The notes beneath the pieces are model-generated. The model saw nothing but the letters and a program-made list of their open reading frames with translations. It was not told the DNA's origin and made no database searches. The translations under genes were made by a program, and so were the position numbers. A stretch of 31,749 nt of DNA. Source: a virus. The stretch spans positions 1-31,749 of IMG/VR virus record IMGVR_UViG_3300014962_000034; one strand, written 5' to 3'. This document shows, piece by piece, positions 10,225-24,858 of the stretch (positions are counted from its first letter, which is position 1; every line of letters begins with the position of its first letter).

Positions 10225-10671
10225 ATGGCATATCGTAAGAACACCAAGCCCTCAGAGGCCGAAATGGAAGCGCCGGAAGTCTCTATTGAGATGGAAGATG
10301 GCGTTGAGGTCGAAGTCGATATGCCTGATGAAGAGGCTATGTCGGAAGATGAACTCCAGCGCATCGTTGCTGGGGAGATCGACGACAGCCAAGCCTATAT
10401 TGATGACGTTATCTCGCCTGAGCGCGCGATGGCTGGTCAGTATTACAAGGGCGAACCGTTCGGAAATGAAGAGGAAGGCCGCTCTCAGGTCGTCTCGATG
10501 GACGTTCGGGACACCATTCAGGCCATCATGCCGTCGATCATGAAGGTGTTCTTTGGCTCGTCCAAGGTGGTGGAATACGCTCCGAACAGCGCAGAGGATA
10601 TTGAAGCCGCAGAGCAGGCAACGGATTATGTCAACTACCTATGCGATGTTCAAGGACGCTCTGACCCGTAA
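10225..10671 (+). CDS. Portal protein, N-terminal part (frame broken)
   Basis: The first about 137 residues match the N-terminus of large podovirus portals: an acidic leader (about 1-60), then AGQYYKGEPFGNE, VVSMDVRDTIQAIMPSIM and ATDYVNY. After YVNY the frame reads LCDVQGRSDP and stops at 10671, while the homologous sequence continues at once in the +1 frame with YAMFKDALTRKNG. In intact relatives that I recall, about 14 residues separate YVNY from FKDAL; here only ten bases remain. This points to a small frame-changing deletion, natural or from assembly. The fragment alone could not form a portal. Eight-base spacing from the upstream gene. Confidence 0.8.
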   Translation: MAYRKNTKPSEAEMEAPEVSIEMEDGVEVEVDMPDEEAMSEDELQRIVAGEIDDSQAYIDDVISPERAMAGQYYKGEPFGNEEEGRSQVVSMDVRDTIQAIMPSIMKVFFGSSKVVEYAPNSAEDIEAAEQATDYVNYLCDVQGRSDP

Positions 10672-12409
10672 GAACGGCTTCGGCAAGGTCTGGTGGGATG
10701 AGACAGAGAACGTTGAGACATACGAGATCGAGGGCATTGACGAAAACGCCTATATGGTCCTCATGTCCGACCCTGACGTTGAACTGCGTGAAGTCGAGAT
10801 TGAATATTCCCAACAGGAGATCATGACGCCTGAAGGGATTACCACAATTGTGGAAACCCCGATCTACAGCGCAACAGTCGTCCGCAAGACGAAAGAGGGT
10901 CGCCTCAACGTCGCAGCCCTGCCGCCTGAAGAGTTTCTTGCTGGCCGCCGCACCAAGTCAATGACTGACTTCGACTTTCTCGGCCATCGTCGGTATATGA
11001 CCGTCTCCGAACTGGTGAAGATGGGCTACGACCTAGACGAAATTGAGAACTTGGGCTTTGAAACTCAGGACGACTTCGACGGCAACCAAGAGACGTTTGA
11101 CCGCAACCCGCAGGCAAGCATCCTTGGATCTGGCCGCACTGACGTAGCAAGCCGCAAGGTTCTCTACATTGAAGGCTATCTCTACGTTGACAAGGATGGC
11201 GACGGCATCGCTGAATTGCGCAAGGTCTGCGTTGGCGGCACGGCCTATAAGATCCTGCACGACGAGGCTGTTGACGATCACCCGTTCTTCGACTTCTGCC
11301 CCGATCCAGAGCCGCACACGTTCTTTGGTATGTCGATTGCAGATGTCGTCATGGACATCCAGCGGATCAAGTCGTCCATCATGCGAAACACGCTGGACAG
11401 CCTCGCGCAGTCGATCTATCCCCGCATGGGCGTTGTGGAAGGCCAAGCCAACATTGAGGACGTGATGAACACCGAAGTCGGTGGCATCATCCGTATGCGC
11501 TCACCTAACGCTGTAACGCCCTTTGTGACGCCAAACGTCTCTCAGGCTGCATTCCCCATGCTGCAATACATGGATGAGATCAAAGAGAGTCGCACGGGTA
11601 TCTCTAAGGCGTCTGCTGGCCTCGATCCGAACGCCCTGAGCAATTCCACCGCAACGGCTGTCAACGCCACTGTAACAGCCGCACAGCAGCATATCGAACT
11701 GATCTGCCGCATCTTTGCCGAAACGGGCTTTAAGACGCTGATGAACAAGGCGCTGAAGCTGCTGGTTAAGAACCAAGACAAGCCGCGCATCGTTCGCCTG
11801 CGTAACAAGTTTGTCCCGATTGATCCGCGCGTCTGGGATGCCAACATGGACGTTGTGGTCAACGTGGCGCTTGGCACTGGCTCCGATCAGCAGCGGATGG
11901 GCTTCCTGAACGTCATCGCTCAGAAGCAGGAAATGCTGTTGCAGCAGCTTGGCCCTATGAACAACCCCATCGTGTCGCTGAGTAACTACTACAACACGCT
12001 TGAGCAGATGCTGGCCGTCGCTGGCTTTAAGGATGTTTCGCAGTTCTTTGAGAACCCGCAGAACTTCCAGCCGCCGCAGCCGACACCGCCGCCGCCCAGC
12101 CCTGAGCAGATCTTGGCAGAGGTGCAGGCCCAGTCAATTCAGGCGGACATCCAGAAGAAGGCCGCCGAACTTGAACTGAAGCGGCAGGAAATGCTGTTAG
12201 TTGATGACCGTGAGCGTGACAAGCTGGACGCAGACGTTCTCCTGAAGGCCGCTGAGATCGAAGCCAAGTATGGCGCACAGGTCAATACGGCGAATATCGA
12301 GGCTCTAATGCAGCGTGACCGTGAGGCAATTCGTCAACAGGCCGAAGCTGACCGCGCAATCATGGCTGCACAGGCTCAGGCCGCTCAAGTTGAACCGGGG
12401 ATGATGTAA
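10628..12409 (+). CDS. Portal protein, C-terminal part (frame broken)
   Basis: This is the bulk of the portal, the dodecameric ring through which DNA enters and leaves the head. The frame is open from 10553, but codons before about 10637 only shadow the N-terminal fragment. ATGs at 10628 and 10646 are the nearest possible starts and neither has a good ribosome-binding site. Portal-like content begins at FKDALTRKNGFGKVWW, continues through HPFFDFCPDPEPHTFFGMS and QRIKSSIMRNTLDSLAQS, and ends with a Pro-rich hinge (PQPTPPPPSPEQ) and a Gln/Ala/Glu coiled coil. Joined with the N-terminal part it would be roughly 730 aa, normal for this portal type. The stop overlaps the next ATG (TAATG). Confidence 0.85.
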   Translation: MSTTYAMFKDALTRKNGFGKVWWDETENVETYEIEGIDENAYMVLMSDPDVELREVEIEYSQQEIMTPEGITTIVETPIYSATVVRKTKEGRLNVAALPPEEFLAGRRTKSMTDFDFLGHRRYMTVSELVKMGYDLDEIENLGFETQDDFDGNQETFDRNPQASILGSGRTDVASRKVLYIEGYLYVDKDGDGIAELRKVCVGGTAYKILHDEAVDDHPFFDFCPDPEPHTFFGMSIADVVMDIQRIKSSIMRNTLDSLAQSIYPRMGVVEGQANIEDVMNTEVGGIIRMRSPNAVTPFVTPNVSQAAFPMLQYMDEIKESRTGISKASAGLDPNALSNSTATAVNATVTAAQQHIELICRIFAETGFKTLMNKALKLLVKNQDKPRIVRLRNKFVPIDPRVWDANMDVVVNVALGTGSDQQRMGFLNVIAQKQEMLLQQLGPMNNPIVSLSNYYNTLEQMLAVAGFKDVSQFFENPQNFQPPQPTPPPPSPEQILAEVQAQSIQADIQKKAAELELKRQEMLLVDDRERDKLDADVLLKAAEIEAKYGAQVNTANIEALMQRDREAIRQQAEADRAIMAAQAQAAQVEPGMM

Positions 12410-13761
12410 TGGCAGACCTTCAGACGCTTATTAATGCTGGTTTATCCCCGCAGGACGCTGCATCGCTGCTTGCCGACCTTCAGCGTTACGAAACGGCTGG
12501 CTTTCCAAACCTAAACTTGGGCGTTGCACCGCAAAGCGCGATGGTCAACGGGGTGGAATATCAAAATCTTTATGGCGGGATGGATATTATTCCCGGCATG
12601 ACCAGCAATGTCTTTGCAAACCTCGGCATCGAAAATCCGCAAGTACCAGTATACAATATTGCCGAAGTTCAAGCGCAACAAAATCCAAACGATGCGCGTC
12701 AAATGTCGTTCATGCCAACCCCAGGATCAACATACCGTCTTGTAGATAATACAACGGGCGATGTTGTTGTAACCGCATCAACTCCAGAACAATACGCAAC
12801 GCTTGCTCAAACGGCAAATGAACTGGCTGCATCGGAGGGTAAACGCGCAAACTTTGAGATCCAGCGGCAAGACCCGCAGTCGATTGGCGGAGGCTTCACC
12901 CCGATCTATTCTGACACGCCTGATGTAGCATTTGACACGACTGCACAGCTTCTGGCCGCTGGTATGCTTGCCATGACTGGCGCTGGATTGCTTCAGCCGG
13001 GTGGATTGGGCGGTGTTGGTGCAGGCGCAACGGGTGCTGGTGTCGGCACTGGGACAGGCATTGGCGCTGGCGCTGGTATTGGCGGTAGTGTTGCTGCGCC
13101 ATCCTTAGCAGCCTCCACACTCGCCCCGCTTGCGGCTGAGGCTGGGACGATTTTGGTGACTGCACCTACGGCTGCTGCTGGTCTTGGTACTATTGCGCCA
13201 ATTGCGGCAGGAACGGCTGCCACTGGTGGGCTTTTGGCATCAACTGGAGGCGTTGGCGCTCAACCTGCACCCCAATCTCCTACAAATGCTGCTGCTGCAC
13301 CTGACGAAATTGTTGTCACCGCGCAAAATGCCAACCCATTAACAATTCCGCCTGCTGTTCCAGTCGCCGCTGGAACTGGTTTAACCACCGGACTCTTGGC
13401 AGGTGCGCAGCCAACAGCATTGCCGGAAGTTGGGCCGATCGACACTGTAAAGCAGCCTGGTATTCTTGATAAGGCGCTGGGTAGCCTGTCAATCTCCGAT
13501 TACCTAACGCTTGGCAGTCTTGCGGCATCTGGGGTTGGAAGCCTTCTCGGTGGCGGTGGAACTGGCAACCAGACGCCGTATACATCGCCATTCACATCCG
13601 CAGCCGCTGGCCGTGACATGAGGGCTAATCCGAACATCGCTGATTACGAGCAGTATGGCTTTGGCCCTGAGGCCACATTCTTCAAGCCTGAGTATAACCA
13701 GCTTGTATCCAGCACGTTCCAACCCGCCACGCAGGCTTACAGGCCTCTCATCAATGGATAA
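12409..13761 (+). CDS. Gly/Ala-rich virion protein with TonB-box-like motifs
   Basis: The 450-aa protein lies between portal and scaffold. Residues 1-180 form an ordinary globular region. About 185-295 is a low-complexity Gly/Ala/Thr stretch (GVGAGATGAGVGTGTGIGAG) with hydrophobic character. The C-terminal 60 residues are Tyr/Phe-rich (YEQYGFGPEATFFKPEYNQL). Three short sequences resemble TonB boxes of outer-membrane receptors: DVVVTAS at 118-124, TILVTAP at 247-253 and DEIVVTAQ at 299-306. The last is nearly identical to the boxes of FepA (DTIVVTA) and BtuB (DTLVVTA). No family was recognised. A virion or ejection role is inferred from its position. Start in TAATG with the portal stop. Confidence 0.7.
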   Translation: MADLQTLINAGLSPQDAASLLADLQRYETAGFPNLNLGVAPQSAMVNGVEYQNLYGGMDIIPGMTSNVFANLGIENPQVPVYNIAEVQAQQNPNDARQMSFMPTPGSTYRLVDNTTGDVVVTASTPEQYATLAQTANELAASEGKRANFEIQRQDPQSIGGGFTPIYSDTPDVAFDTTAQLLAAGMLAMTGAGLLQPGGLGGVGAGATGAGVGTGTGIGAGAGIGGSVAAPSLAASTLAPLAAEAGTILVTAPTAAAGLGTIAPIAAGTAATGGLLASTGGVGAQPAPQSPTNAAAAPDEIVVTAQNANPLTIPPAVPVAAGTGLTTGLLAGAQPTALPEVGPIDTVKQPGILDKALGSLSISDYLTLGSLAASGVGSLLGGGGTGNQTPYTSPFTSAAAGRDMRANPNIADYEQYGFGPEATFFKPEYNQLVSSTFQPATQAYRPLING

Positions 13762-14002
13762 CAAAATGGACCGTCAAACGGCGATTGACAAGGCCGAACA
13801 CTGCAACCGTCTGGTCAAGGATGAGTTGCTGATTGAAGCCTTTGAGTCGGTTGAGGCTGACATTTACAACGAATGGCGCACCAGTGCCGTGGGCGATTAC
13901 CAGTATCGCTCAGACCTGTTTCACACGCTTAAAGGATTAGAGCGTTTGAAAGCTAGACTGCAAAAATACATCGACGATGGAGTGATTGCGTCTAGGAGTT
14001 AA
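13754..14002 (+). CDS. Small helical conserved phage protein, 82 aa
   Basis: The open frame begins at 13655, but the ATG at 13754, overlapping the previous stop by eight bases, is the better start; 13766 is an alternative that gives MDRQTAIDKAEHCNRL. The product is charged and helical throughout, ending ERLKARLQKYIDDGVI, and looks like a two-helix coiled coil. Similar short proteins sit before the scaffold or capsid genes in other podovirus-like genomes, usually without assigned function. It may help head assembly; that is inference. A 22-base spacer with AAAAGGTGAT precedes the scaffold gene. Confidence 0.65.
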   Translation: MDNKMDRQTAIDKAEHCNRLVKDELLIEAFESVEADIYNEWRTSAVGDYQYRSDLFHTLKGLERLKARLQKYIDDGVIASRS

Positions 14003-14024: not shown

Positions 14025-15032
14025 ATGACGGAACAAGTCGGCAACCCCGAAGGCGGGATCGGCCTCCACGAAGCAACCTTAGCCATTAGTCAATTGCTCG
14101 GCCCTGAAGAGGACAACCAAGAGGAGACTGAGGCGCTAGATCCAGAAATGGATCAGGACGGATCTGAATACGAGGAAGAAGGCGAAGAGCCGGAAGCCGA
14201 AGAGGATGACGAGTCCGAACTGGATGAAGATGATGGTGAGGAAGAAGCCTCGCAGGAACTTCCCGACGATCTAACTGTCAAGGTCAAAGTTGACGGCGAA
14301 GAGATGGAAGTCACCCTAGCAGAACTTCGGAATGGCTATAGTCGGACTTCAGATTACACGCGGAAGGCGCAGGCTCTCGCAGAGGAACGCAAGGCGTTCC
14401 AATCGGAAGCTGAAACCATCCGTCAAGAACGCGCTCAATATGCTGAATTGTTGCCGCTGCTACAGCAGCAGTTGATGCAGCAAGCCAGTGCGGAGCCTGA
14501 CTGGGACAGTCTTTATAACGAAGACCCCATTGAGGCAGCGCGGTTAGAACGACAGTGGCGTAAATCCCGTGAGGAACAGTCGTATCGGCTCCAAGCCATT
14601 CAGGCAGAGCAGCAGCGATTGGCACAGGAAGCAGCCGCCGACCAGGCAAGAGCCATTCAGGCTTTTGTCGAAGAAGAACGGGCTAAGTTACCTGATGTTA
14701 TCCCAGAGTGGAAAAATAAGGAAACGATGGTTCGGGAAGCTAAAGAGTTACGGGAATGGGCTATTGCTCAGGGCCTGACAGAGCAGGAAGTAGACAGCCT
14801 GCGTCAAGCCAATCACGTTGCTCTGATCCGCAAGGCGATGCTCTACGATAAGGGCAAGACACGGGTGCAGCAGTCTAAGAACGCACCCAAGAAGCAGGGC
14901 AAGGTTATCCGTCCCGGCTCGTCAGGATCACAGGTCGATAGTCGTCAAACCGATGTAAAGAGGGCTTCCCAGCGTCTTGTACGTTCTGGCCGCATTTCTG
15001 ATGCAGCCGCTCTTTTGGATAAACTCATTTAG
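14025..15032 (+). CDS. Capsid assembly scaffolding protein
   Basis: The 335-aa protein has an extremely acidic N-terminal third (Glu/Asp-rich from about 25 to 85), a small beta segment (DDLTVKVKVDGEEMEVTLAE), then a long Gln/Glu/Ala coiled coil (about 110-220) and a basic C-terminus. This is the classic scaffold layout: an extended helical core with a basic C-terminal segment that contacts the capsid. It sits directly before the major capsid gene with a 15-base gap. The ribosome-binding site AAAAGGTGAT lies seven bases before the ATG. Confidence is high from composition and position, although scaffold sequences themselves are poorly conserved. Confidence 0.85.
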   Translation: MTEQVGNPEGGIGLHEATLAISQLLGPEEDNQEETEALDPEMDQDGSEYEEEGEEPEAEEDDESELDEDDGEEEASQELPDDLTVKVKVDGEEMEVTLAELRNGYSRTSDYTRKAQALAEERKAFQSEAETIRQERAQYAELLPLLQQQLMQQASAEPDWDSLYNEDPIEAARLERQWRKSREEQSYRLQAIQAEQQRLAQEAAADQARAIQAFVEEERAKLPDVIPEWKNKETMVREAKELREWAIAQGLTEQEVDSLRQANHVALIRKAMLYDKGKTRVQQSKNAPKKQGKVIRPGSSGSQVDSRQTDVKRASQRLVRSGRISDAAALLDKLI

Positions 15033-15047
15033 TGAAAGGCCCATATC

Positions 15048-16010
15048 ATGGCTATTGTTGCAAATACCTTTACCCGTTATTCCGCCATCGGTATTCGTGA
15101 AGATCTCTCGAATGTCATCTATAACATCTCGCCGGAAGAAACCCCGTTCATCTCGAACATTGGCCGCGAGAATGTTAAGAACACCTACTTTGAATGGCAG
15201 ACGGACGCTCTGGCTGCCGCTTCGGACTCGAACGCGGCTCTGGAAGGCGATGACGTTTCGTCGTTCACCGCTGTCACCCCGACTGTCCGCGTTGGTAACT
15301 ACACGCAGATCAGCACCAAGAACGTGGTCCTGTCCGGTACGCTCGAAGCGGTTGACAAGGCTGGCCGTCGCTCGGAACTGACCTATCAGCTTGCCAAGCT
15401 GGGTTCGGAACTGAAGCGCGACATGGAAGCCGCTCTGCTTGCCAACCAGGCTTCGGTTGCTGGTAACACCACGACTGCCCGTCGCACGGCTGGTCTGCCC
15501 GCATGGCTCACCTCGAACACCTCGACGGGTTCGGGTGGTGCTAACCCGACTGTTGGCTCGACCCCGACTGCTGCCCGTACGGACGGCACTCAGCGCGCCT
15601 TCACGGAAACGCTCCTGAAGAACGTCATCTCGGCGGTCTGGACGAGCGGTGGTAGCCCGAAAATCCTCATGACGGGCGCGTTCAACAAGCAGGCCGCCTC
15701 TGCCTTCTCCGGCATTGCAACCCGCTTCCGTGACGTTCCGGCTGGTTCGCAGGCTCAGATCATCGGTGCTGCCGATGTGTATGTGTCTGACTTCGGCACG
15801 GTGAGCATCGTTCCGAACCGCTTCCAGCGCGCTCGTGACGCTTTCGTCCTCGATCCTGAAATGGCTTCGCTGGCGATCCTGCGCCCGATCCAGCAGATGG
15901 AACTGGCAAAGACCGGCGACGCTGAAAAGCGCCTGATGCTGGTTGAATATGGCCTGAAGGTCAACAACCAAGCGGCCCACGGTATTGTGGCCGACCTTAC
16001 AACCTCGTAA
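15048..16010 (+). CDS. Major capsid protein, SU10/DUF5309 type
   Basis: The 320-aa product matches the SU10-like (DUF5309) major capsid family across its length as I recall it: IREDLSNVIYNISPEETPF at the start, FEWQTDALAA, VLSGTLEAVDKAGRR, TDGTQRAFTETLLK, VPNRFQRARDAFVLDPEM and the ending HGIVADLTTS. It has the HK97 fold and forms the icosahedral shell. Codon use is the most biased of the window, heavily favouring C-ending codons such as AAC, ATC and TTC with frequent CTG and TCG, as expected for the most highly made protein. A strong hairpin follows the stop. The 350-aa open frame on the opposite strand is a by-product of this bias. Confidence 0.94.
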   Translation: MAIVANTFTRYSAIGIREDLSNVIYNISPEETPFISNIGRENVKNTYFEWQTDALAAASDSNAALEGDDVSSFTAVTPTVRVGNYTQISTKNVVLSGTLEAVDKAGRRSELTYQLAKLGSELKRDMEAALLANQASVAGNTTTARRTAGLPAWLTSNTSTGSGGANPTVGSTPTAARTDGTQRAFTETLLKNVISAVWTSGGSPKILMTGAFNKQAASAFSGIATRFRDVPAGSQAQIIGAADVYVSDFGTVSIVPNRFQRARDAFVLDPEMASLAILRPIQQMELAKTGDAEKRLMLVEYGLKVNNQAAHGIVADLTTS

Positions 16011-23988: not shown

Positions 23989-24858
23989 ATGTCCAAGGGC
24001 GGCAACACGGCGACACAGGCGACGACGCAGACGCTTGATCCCTTTGTTAAGGATCTAATGACGCGAGGCTTTACGGCTGCACAGCAAGTTGCCTCTACGC
24101 CTTATCAGGCATACACTGGTCCCCGACTGGCTCAGTTCCGCCCGCAGGAGATGCAGGCATTCCAGATGGCTGAACAGGCCGCCACTGGCCGCGTTGGCGC
24201 TCCCCAGCTTGAACAGGCCACGATGGCCGCTCAGAGGGCCGCAGGATACTCCCCCGCACAGTTCCAGCAGGACGTGCAGGGTTTCATGTCACCGTATCAG
24301 GAAAGCGTTGTAGACGCGACTATGCGCCGTCTGGCTCAGGCCCGTGCAGAGCGTGACGCAGCGACCAAGGCTCAGTTGGCATCATCCCGCGCGTTCGGCA
24401 ATGAGCGCCGTGGCGTGTATGAAGCGCAACTTGCTGGCGAACAGGATCTGAACACGGCTCAGACGCTGGCGAACCTCTATCAGCAGGGCTACGGTCAGGC
24501 CGCTGGCTTTGCTCAGGCGCTTCCGACCCAGCAGTTGGCAGGTGCTGGTGCATTGGCTAACTTCGGCGCTCAGGCCCTCTCACAAGAGCAAGCCCGTCAG
24601 CAGATGCTTGCTGGTGCTGGTCAGGCGCAACGCGGCATGGCGCAGCAGAACCTTGATCTGGCGTATCAGGATTTCCTTGCGCAGCGCGGCTATCCGCTGG
24701 AACAGCTTAAAATCCTTCAGTCTGGCATCAGCGGCGTTCCCGCACTTACGTCATCCACACAAACAACCACCGGGCCTGGACAGGGGTTTCTTAATACAGC
24801 GTCTGACGTAACTGGATTTATTTCTGGCCTCCAAAAAATCGGGATTTTACCGAAATGA
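23989..24858 (+). CDS. Probable internal virion/ejection protein, 289 aa
   Basis: Ala/Gln-rich helical protein: LDPFVKDLMTRGFTAAQQVA, PYQAYTGPRLAQFRPQEMQA and FMSPYQESVVDATMRRLAQA, followed by long Ala/Gln repeats and a hydrophobic tail. Similar proteins with YTGPRLAQF- and FMSPYQ-type motifs occur in many short-tailed phages of aquatic bacteria just upstream of other internal proteins. It probably forms part of the ejected channel or inner core. No enzymatic motif. It overlaps the next gene by four bases (ATGA). Confidence 0.72.
   Translation: MSKGGNTATQATTQTLDPFVKDLMTRGFTAAQQVASTPYQAYTGPRLAQFRPQEMQAFQMAEQAATGRVGAPQLEQATMAAQRAAGYSPAQFQQDVQGFMSPYQESVVDATMRRLAQARAERDAATKAQLASSRAFGNERRGVYEAQLAGEQDLNTAQTLANLYQQGYGQAAGFAQALPTQQLAGAGALANFGAQALSQEQARQQMLAGAGQAQRGMAQQNLDLAYQDFLAQRGYPLEQLKILQSGISGVPALTSSTQTTTGPGQGFLNTASDVTGFISGLQKIGILPK

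Follow-up and report, generated by a model that had tools for sequence, protein, structure and literature searches.

A protein encoded directly behind the portal gene of a short-tailed phage was found to carry a motif closely resembling the TonB boxes of outer-membrane receptors, and this motif recurs family-wide, with one to four copies in each protein that carries it. Judged from the sequences, mimicry of TonB boxes appears well supported, and the motif would thereby be encountered in a new type of protein, namely a virion-region protein of phages. As to its function, the chances are about even that this is an ejection-type protein whose TonB-box mimics engage the host TonB in the periplasm while the genome is being delivered.

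Genomic setting of the motif gene

The window, that is the whole stretch of DNA analysed, is a complete IMG/VR record of 31,749 bases, a podovirus-like contig that is placed with the SU10-type short-tailed phages by its genes for a portal (PF23899), a scaffold and a major capsid protein (PF17236). The gene of interest (12409..13761, + strand) is an open reading frame (ORF) whose translation gives a putative ejection-type virion-region protein of 450 amino acids, the residues being coded by 12409-13758. The main part of the SU10-type portal protein (10553..12409, + strand; PF23899, E 9e-167; phrog_1216) lies directly upstream. Downstream follow the genes for a head scaffolding protein (14025..15032, + strand; phrog_3927, E 1.6e-56) and an SU10-type major capsid protein (15048..16010, + strand; PF17236, E 3.5e-102), and a protein encoded at 23989..24858 (+ strand) belongs to the 'DNA ejection protein' family phrog_4287. 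In Riverwalkvirus-like phages, the counterpart of this last protein adjoins the motif gene.

Some features of the surrounding DNA deserve to be recorded in their own right. The portal of the window is split between two overlapping ORFs in different frames, 10225-10671 and 10553-12409, which match positions 10-114 and 125-697 of phrog_1216, respectively; in the loci L002 and L003, the portal is a single ORF of 760-768 amino acids. The split would be either an assembly error or a genuine frameshift. Besides, a small phrog_8161 protein (13655-14002) is called in another frame over the 3' end of the motif gene, and its true start probably lies later than called; in the related phages phiM5, MW202879 and MW202711, a small gene likewise lies directly after the portal. 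Elsewhere in the window, at 1040-2206, a ParB-like N-terminal domain is fused to an N6/N4 DNA methylase.

The motif protein of the window has no match in Pfam or in PHROG, tape-measure-family profiles of the latter included, and a tblastn search of 50,697 phage records gave none either. Three of its relatives (L020, L007 and L096) also gave no tblastn match among phage records, the link from the family to isolate phages being reached via the relative L131 and then phage GB2A. Since no match to the TonB_C family was found anywhere in the contig, any TonB partner would be that of the host. The possibility of a captured, real TonB receptor was rejected, the motif protein being devoid of Pfam matches and the contig of a PF07715 plug domain.

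Motif copies and predicted structure of the protein

The translation places three TonB-box-like sequences at the residues given in the earlier note. One of them, DEIVVTAQ, occupies residues 299-306 (13303..13326, + strand) and is regarded as TonB-box-like on its sequence and on its score with a matrix of receptor boxes. The two weaker copies that had been proposed fared differently. TILVTAP at residues 247-253 (13147..13167, + strand) has a counterpart, PEAGTILVTAP, in the close relative L038 and is probably a degenerate second copy. DVVVTAS at residues 118-124 (12760..12780, + strand) lies within the folded N-terminal domain and is judged coincidental, because it forms a confidently predicted beta strand (E118-123, in a block of pLDDT >90 in AlphaFold2) and is lost in the closest relatives, DVVMSAT replacing it in L001 and L003.

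In an AlphaFold2 model built on a 30-sequence alignment, high confidence is confined to the N-terminal domain, at residues ~100-170 (pLDDT near 90), and to an N-terminal helical stretch. The overall layout comprises an N-terminal alpha/beta domain, a hydrophobic helix, a long motif-bearing linker, a second helix and a conserved C-terminal segment. The linker, rich in Gly, Ala, Pro and Thr, spans residues ~199-349 (13003..13455, + strand), includes DEIVVTAQ and is bordered by helices predicted at 173-194 and 362-379; its pLDDT of ~30-45 suggests that it is probably disordered and hence that the motif lies in a flexible segment. A single hydrophobic segment exceeds the usual threshold in most relatives, and none does so in the window's protein; insertion of the protein into a membrane is thus a guess. 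Among solved structures, no fold match to the model was obtained at E below 0.001, and a fold search of BFVD returned two uncultured phage proteins together with A0A514AAY2 (580 amino acids, E 5e-6), presumed from the equal length of 580 amino acids to be Gp065, the family member discussed below.

A motif that recurs in a diverging family

A profile scan of IMG/VR detected at least 129 relatives, the best 80 of the 129 being retained. In nearly all loci with flanking DNA, the motif gene lies between the portal and the scaffold and capsid genes. This gene order is constant, with capsid proteins ~90% identical to that of the window and portals at 60-95%, and the motif itself is retained although the motif protein drops to mostly 30-45% identity across relatives (30-sequence alignment). 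Conservation is found at the two ends of the protein, as the pattern PGQxxRLVDNxTGxV in the N-terminal domain and PYVSPFG...DMRANPNIxDYERYGFGPEAxFF in the C-terminal segment; the middle part is a Gly/Ala/Pro/Thr-rich linker of variable length that has strongly diverged. Scanning bacterial genome contigs for relatives revealed none. When portal and capsid are compared, the closest isolates, among them phages infecting Sinorhizobium, Rhizobium, Methylophilales, Microcystis and Pelagibacter, give no more than a hint that the window phage has a proteobacterial host. In phiM5, MW202879 and MW202711, just small genes are annotated between portal and scaffold, and the motif protein is therefore regarded as accessory and non-essential to this phage type.

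With the strict definition [DE].?[IVL][IV]VT[AG], the motif occurs in 19 of 34 cluster representatives, against 0.1 expected from residue shuffles and 0.25 from dipeptide-preserving shuffles, clustering at 70% identity correcting only partially for the non-independence of relatives. Under a relaxed definition, 61 of 75 proteins together contain 112 copies (mean in shuffles 0.9, maximum 5), nearly all within the linker and most commonly spaced by 33-57 or 92-114 amino acids. The 48 unique strict copies yield the consensus P-[ED]-[ED]-I-V-V-T-[GA]-x-[R/P/K]-P. The copies are written in many different codons, which argues for selection or convergence at the protein level rather than recent duplication of DNA.

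The earlier note had allowed that the motif might have arisen by chance in surroundings rich in V, T, A and G, and had proposed its conservation in homologues and its frequency relative to shuffled sequences as checks. The composition is indeed biased, and across all IMG/VR the string P[DE][DE]IVVT also matches many unrelated folded viral proteins besides the motif family, so that the string alone is not diagnostic. However, motif-bearing proteins or copies exceed the shuffles ~70- to 300-fold, and the same loci contribute 4,176 other ORFs, totalling 517,249 residues, without a single match to the strict motif. Chance is thereby rejected at the level of the family and is considered a highly improbable explanation for the motif. 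At the level of the family, both checks thus came out on the side of the motif. The exact octamer of the window is not kept in its three closest relatives, which have AAPIVVTAP (L003) or AAPLIITAP (L005), both lacking the acidic residues, or no copy (L009). What is conserved at the sequence level is the recurrent motif, not DEIVVTAQ at its site.

The number of copies also bears on another way in which TonB could be bound. The motif might occupy or block TonB, acting as a competitive inhibitor early in infection that excludes TonB-dependent phages and bacteriocins, and not as a means of drawing energy. Multiple copies would suit such a sponge, and Tuckman and Osburne (1992, as cited in PMC7142613) reportedly found that processes dependent on TonB are inhibited in vivo by a pentapeptide of the TonB box. 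Nevertheless, many members have a single copy, few copies of the protein would enter with each virion, and the gene sits among virion genes, for which reasons inhibition is viewed as improbable.

Likeness to the TonB boxes of receptors

Receptors for comparison were drawn by profile search from two plasmids, pNL2 of Novosphingobium aromaticivorans and one of Pseudoalteromonas, and their boxes include EEIVVTARK, GEIIVTAQR, EEIIVTAQK and DIVVTARR. With a matrix of 12 Novosphingobium boxes, DEIVVTAQ scores 22.0, while the best of 680 shuffled family sequences reaches 13.6 and the best control ORF, out of 481, 14.4; the sample of host boxes is small, 12 from the two plasmids. The resemblance to TonB boxes noticed earlier is thus borne out for the window's copy. 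It extends to positions unused in selecting the phage copies: position -1 is E, D or G, in agreement with the 12 alignable host boxes, and position +7, three residues after the T, is R in 27/67 and K in 5/67 copies, again as in the host boxes, although R and K make up just 2.4% and 2.0% of the residues of the family. The motif of the family thus matches the Novosphingobium boxes EEIVVTARK and GEIIVTAQR, these unselected positions included.

Known TonB boxes provide a frame for this resemblance. In Sphingobium SYK-6, the box consists of three hydrophobic residues followed by T, with V and T required for uptake (PMC6874591). All TonB-dependent receptors and TonB-dependent colicins are reported to have a TonB box, and in pairing with TonB this box serves as a beta strand (PMC11658791). 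Like the boxes of BtuB, FepA, FhuA and the DdvT of Sphingobium SYK-6, the phage motif combines an acidic or polar residue, three hydrophobic residues including V, a T, an A or G and often an R or K, and it is placed in a probably flexible segment, that of the receptors facing the periplasm. Receptors, however, are plug-barrel proteins with one box close to the N terminus, whereas the phage motif lies in an internal linker, in one to four copies, without plug or barrel. Group B colicins and bacteriocins (colicin M, colicins 5/10, klebicin C) offer another comparison, being foreign proteins with a TonB box of their own in an unstructured region (PMC11658791), as would be the case here. These are nevertheless soluble toxins with an N-terminal box, while no toxin domain was found in the phage motif protein in any search. 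In receptors and colicins alike, the box is usually single and near the N terminus, in contrast to the internal and often repeated phage copies.

A bacterial MlaA lipoprotein (PF04333) on a contig of the viral collection, L179:532-1740, has SPDDIVVTARGE ahead of its MlaA domain, and TonB-box-like tags therefore exist outside TonB receptors. This lends some weight to the idea that the phage motif binds another periplasmic host partner recognising such tags, for example TolA, a TonB paralogue or an unknown beta-augmenting protein. As TonB is the best-studied ligand of such sequences (PMC11658791, PMC6874591), a partner of this kind is thought quite improbable.

A second gene context in Riverwalkvirus-like phages

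L038, although a close relative of the window protein, sits in a different genomic setting: there, and in the Caulobacter phages RW, RLK, KcrB and GB2A, the motif gene lies between phrog_3287 and the phrog_4287 'DNA ejection protein'. Among 65 further non-redundant relatives of this second group, 18 have the relaxed motif, versus 0.7 in shuffled sequences, and 47 are without it. The copies may depart in style from those of the portal-context proteins, as in L301 (EVVITASKF, EEVVVTGNRA, DEVIVTGSKY and EEVVVTGTRP), which follow a different TonB-box style, or in L279 (PEIVVTGSKT, EEIKVTAKK and EEITVTGKK).

The family is also represented in Riverwalkvirus phages of Caulobacter vibrioides, a control genome of which encodes TonB receptors and TonB. 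In GB2A, the sole member with a known host, a single copy comes near to the canonical form and fits the relaxed pattern (VDEIVVTP, with P for A/G), and the others are divergent. Its protein, Gp065 (found in RW, RLK, KcrB and GB2A, and labelled 'tail length tape measure protein' in GB2A), shares with the window protein the type of N-terminal domain and a hydrophobic region, and with the family a Gly/Pro/Thr linker, here with one DEIVVTP and divergent copies, and a C-terminal YGMGPEASFF. It differs by its place between phrog_3287 and phrog_4287, the window gene following the portal, by an extra C-terminal domain common to tape measure proteins, and by less canonical motifs.

This short C-terminal domain (SDGEYVMDAETVALLGDGS...) is common to L038, L111, L131 and L203 and to tape measure proteins of Arthrobacter, Rhodococcus and other phages, and the tape measure family matches seen in some relatives are confined to it. 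The motif is absent from 7 proteins that have only this domain, a small sample from phages of Arthrobacter, Rhodococcus, Nitrincola, Synechococcus, SAR11 and others, 2 of them from phages of Gram-positive hosts. A protein of phage DSL-LC04 (L205:2889-5168) has the same C-terminal domain and a linker with a different tandem repeat, (SYAGMDLSSAQGTLGGP)n, and other kinds of repeated short motif therefore occur in such proteins.

The strongest rival to TonB engagement is a role inside the virion, in which the motif would be a docking peptide that adds a beta strand to a partner such as the portal, the scaffold, the capsid or an ejection partner during assembly, its likeness to TonB boxes reflecting shared strand chemistry. 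Such a role would suit a gene placed between portal and scaffold in SU10-type phages, and a partner in the form of a ring could be matched by several copies set at intervals; beta-strand peptides can also resemble each other, the activity of TonB boxes depending little on individual side chains (PMC11658791). Yet the motif is found in two gene contexts, the shifts of style in the second group (EEVVVTGTR, EEITVTGKK) follow the variation of host TonB boxes, the residues at +7 and -1 agree with host boxes, and the copy number ranges from 0 to 4 among phages whose capsids are near-identical. Docking within the virion is thus taken as rather unlikely.

A possible use of the host Ton motor

To return to the engagement of host TonB, the motif protein would be packaged in the particle and leave it with or before the DNA. 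It would consist of a folded N-terminal domain and two helices, at least the first of them hydrophobic, separated by a long flexible linker with at least one TonB-box mimic. After adsorption, the linker would become exposed to the periplasm, where the motif would add a beta strand to the C-terminal domain of host TonB, multiple copies raising the chance of capture. The conduit for DNA delivery could in this way be anchored to, or pulled by, the proton-driven Ton motor, as TonB-dependent colicins make use of their own box.

The steps of this scheme differ in their grounds. We infer the presence of the protein in the virion and its release into the periplasm, and a role in ejection is suggested by the gene neighbourhood of the second context and by analogy with the ejection proteins of SU10, the location in an ejection module being seen in the GB2A-like group and the window gene instead following the portal. 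The ejection proteins of Kuravirus SU10 (gp20-24) are thought to lengthen the tail or to form a conduit across the periplasm (PMC9509320). The portal and capsid families of SU10 are common to the window phage, but the description of SU10 consulted here mentions neither such a protein after the portal nor any involvement of TonB (PMC9509320). The earlier note had suggested that entry might be coupled to the TonB of the host. In this respect, the family-level motif, its likeness to host boxes and a setting that fits an ejection-type protein all speak for the suggestion, whereas the binding of TonB and the use of its energy are only inferred, by analogy with colicins. A broader version of the proposal, according to which several phage lineages independently armed their DNA-ejection proteins with arrays of TonB-box mimics and the Ton motor itself, beyond a TonB-dependent receptor, has a direct share in opening the envelope or pulling the delivery complex in, is put forward tentatively and seems on the doubtful side.

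A search of the open-licence PMC literature with a few combinations of terms found no description of a TonB box in a phage virion protein. The energy supply for DNA entry and the need of phages such as T1 and phi80 for TonB are long-standing questions, and the general view is that the TonB box of the receptor mediates the action of TonB on phage entry. If the proposal is true, a phage-borne and repeated TonB box inside an ejection-type protein would represent a new use of the Ton motor, and a demonstration of TonB binding would be significant for the understanding of phage DNA entry. Caulobacter vibrioides, whose Riverwalkvirus phages carry a related protein, provides a directly testable system. 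Finally, phages that infect TonB-rich bacteria, such as the sphingomonads, might then also be recognisable in sequence data by this motif.
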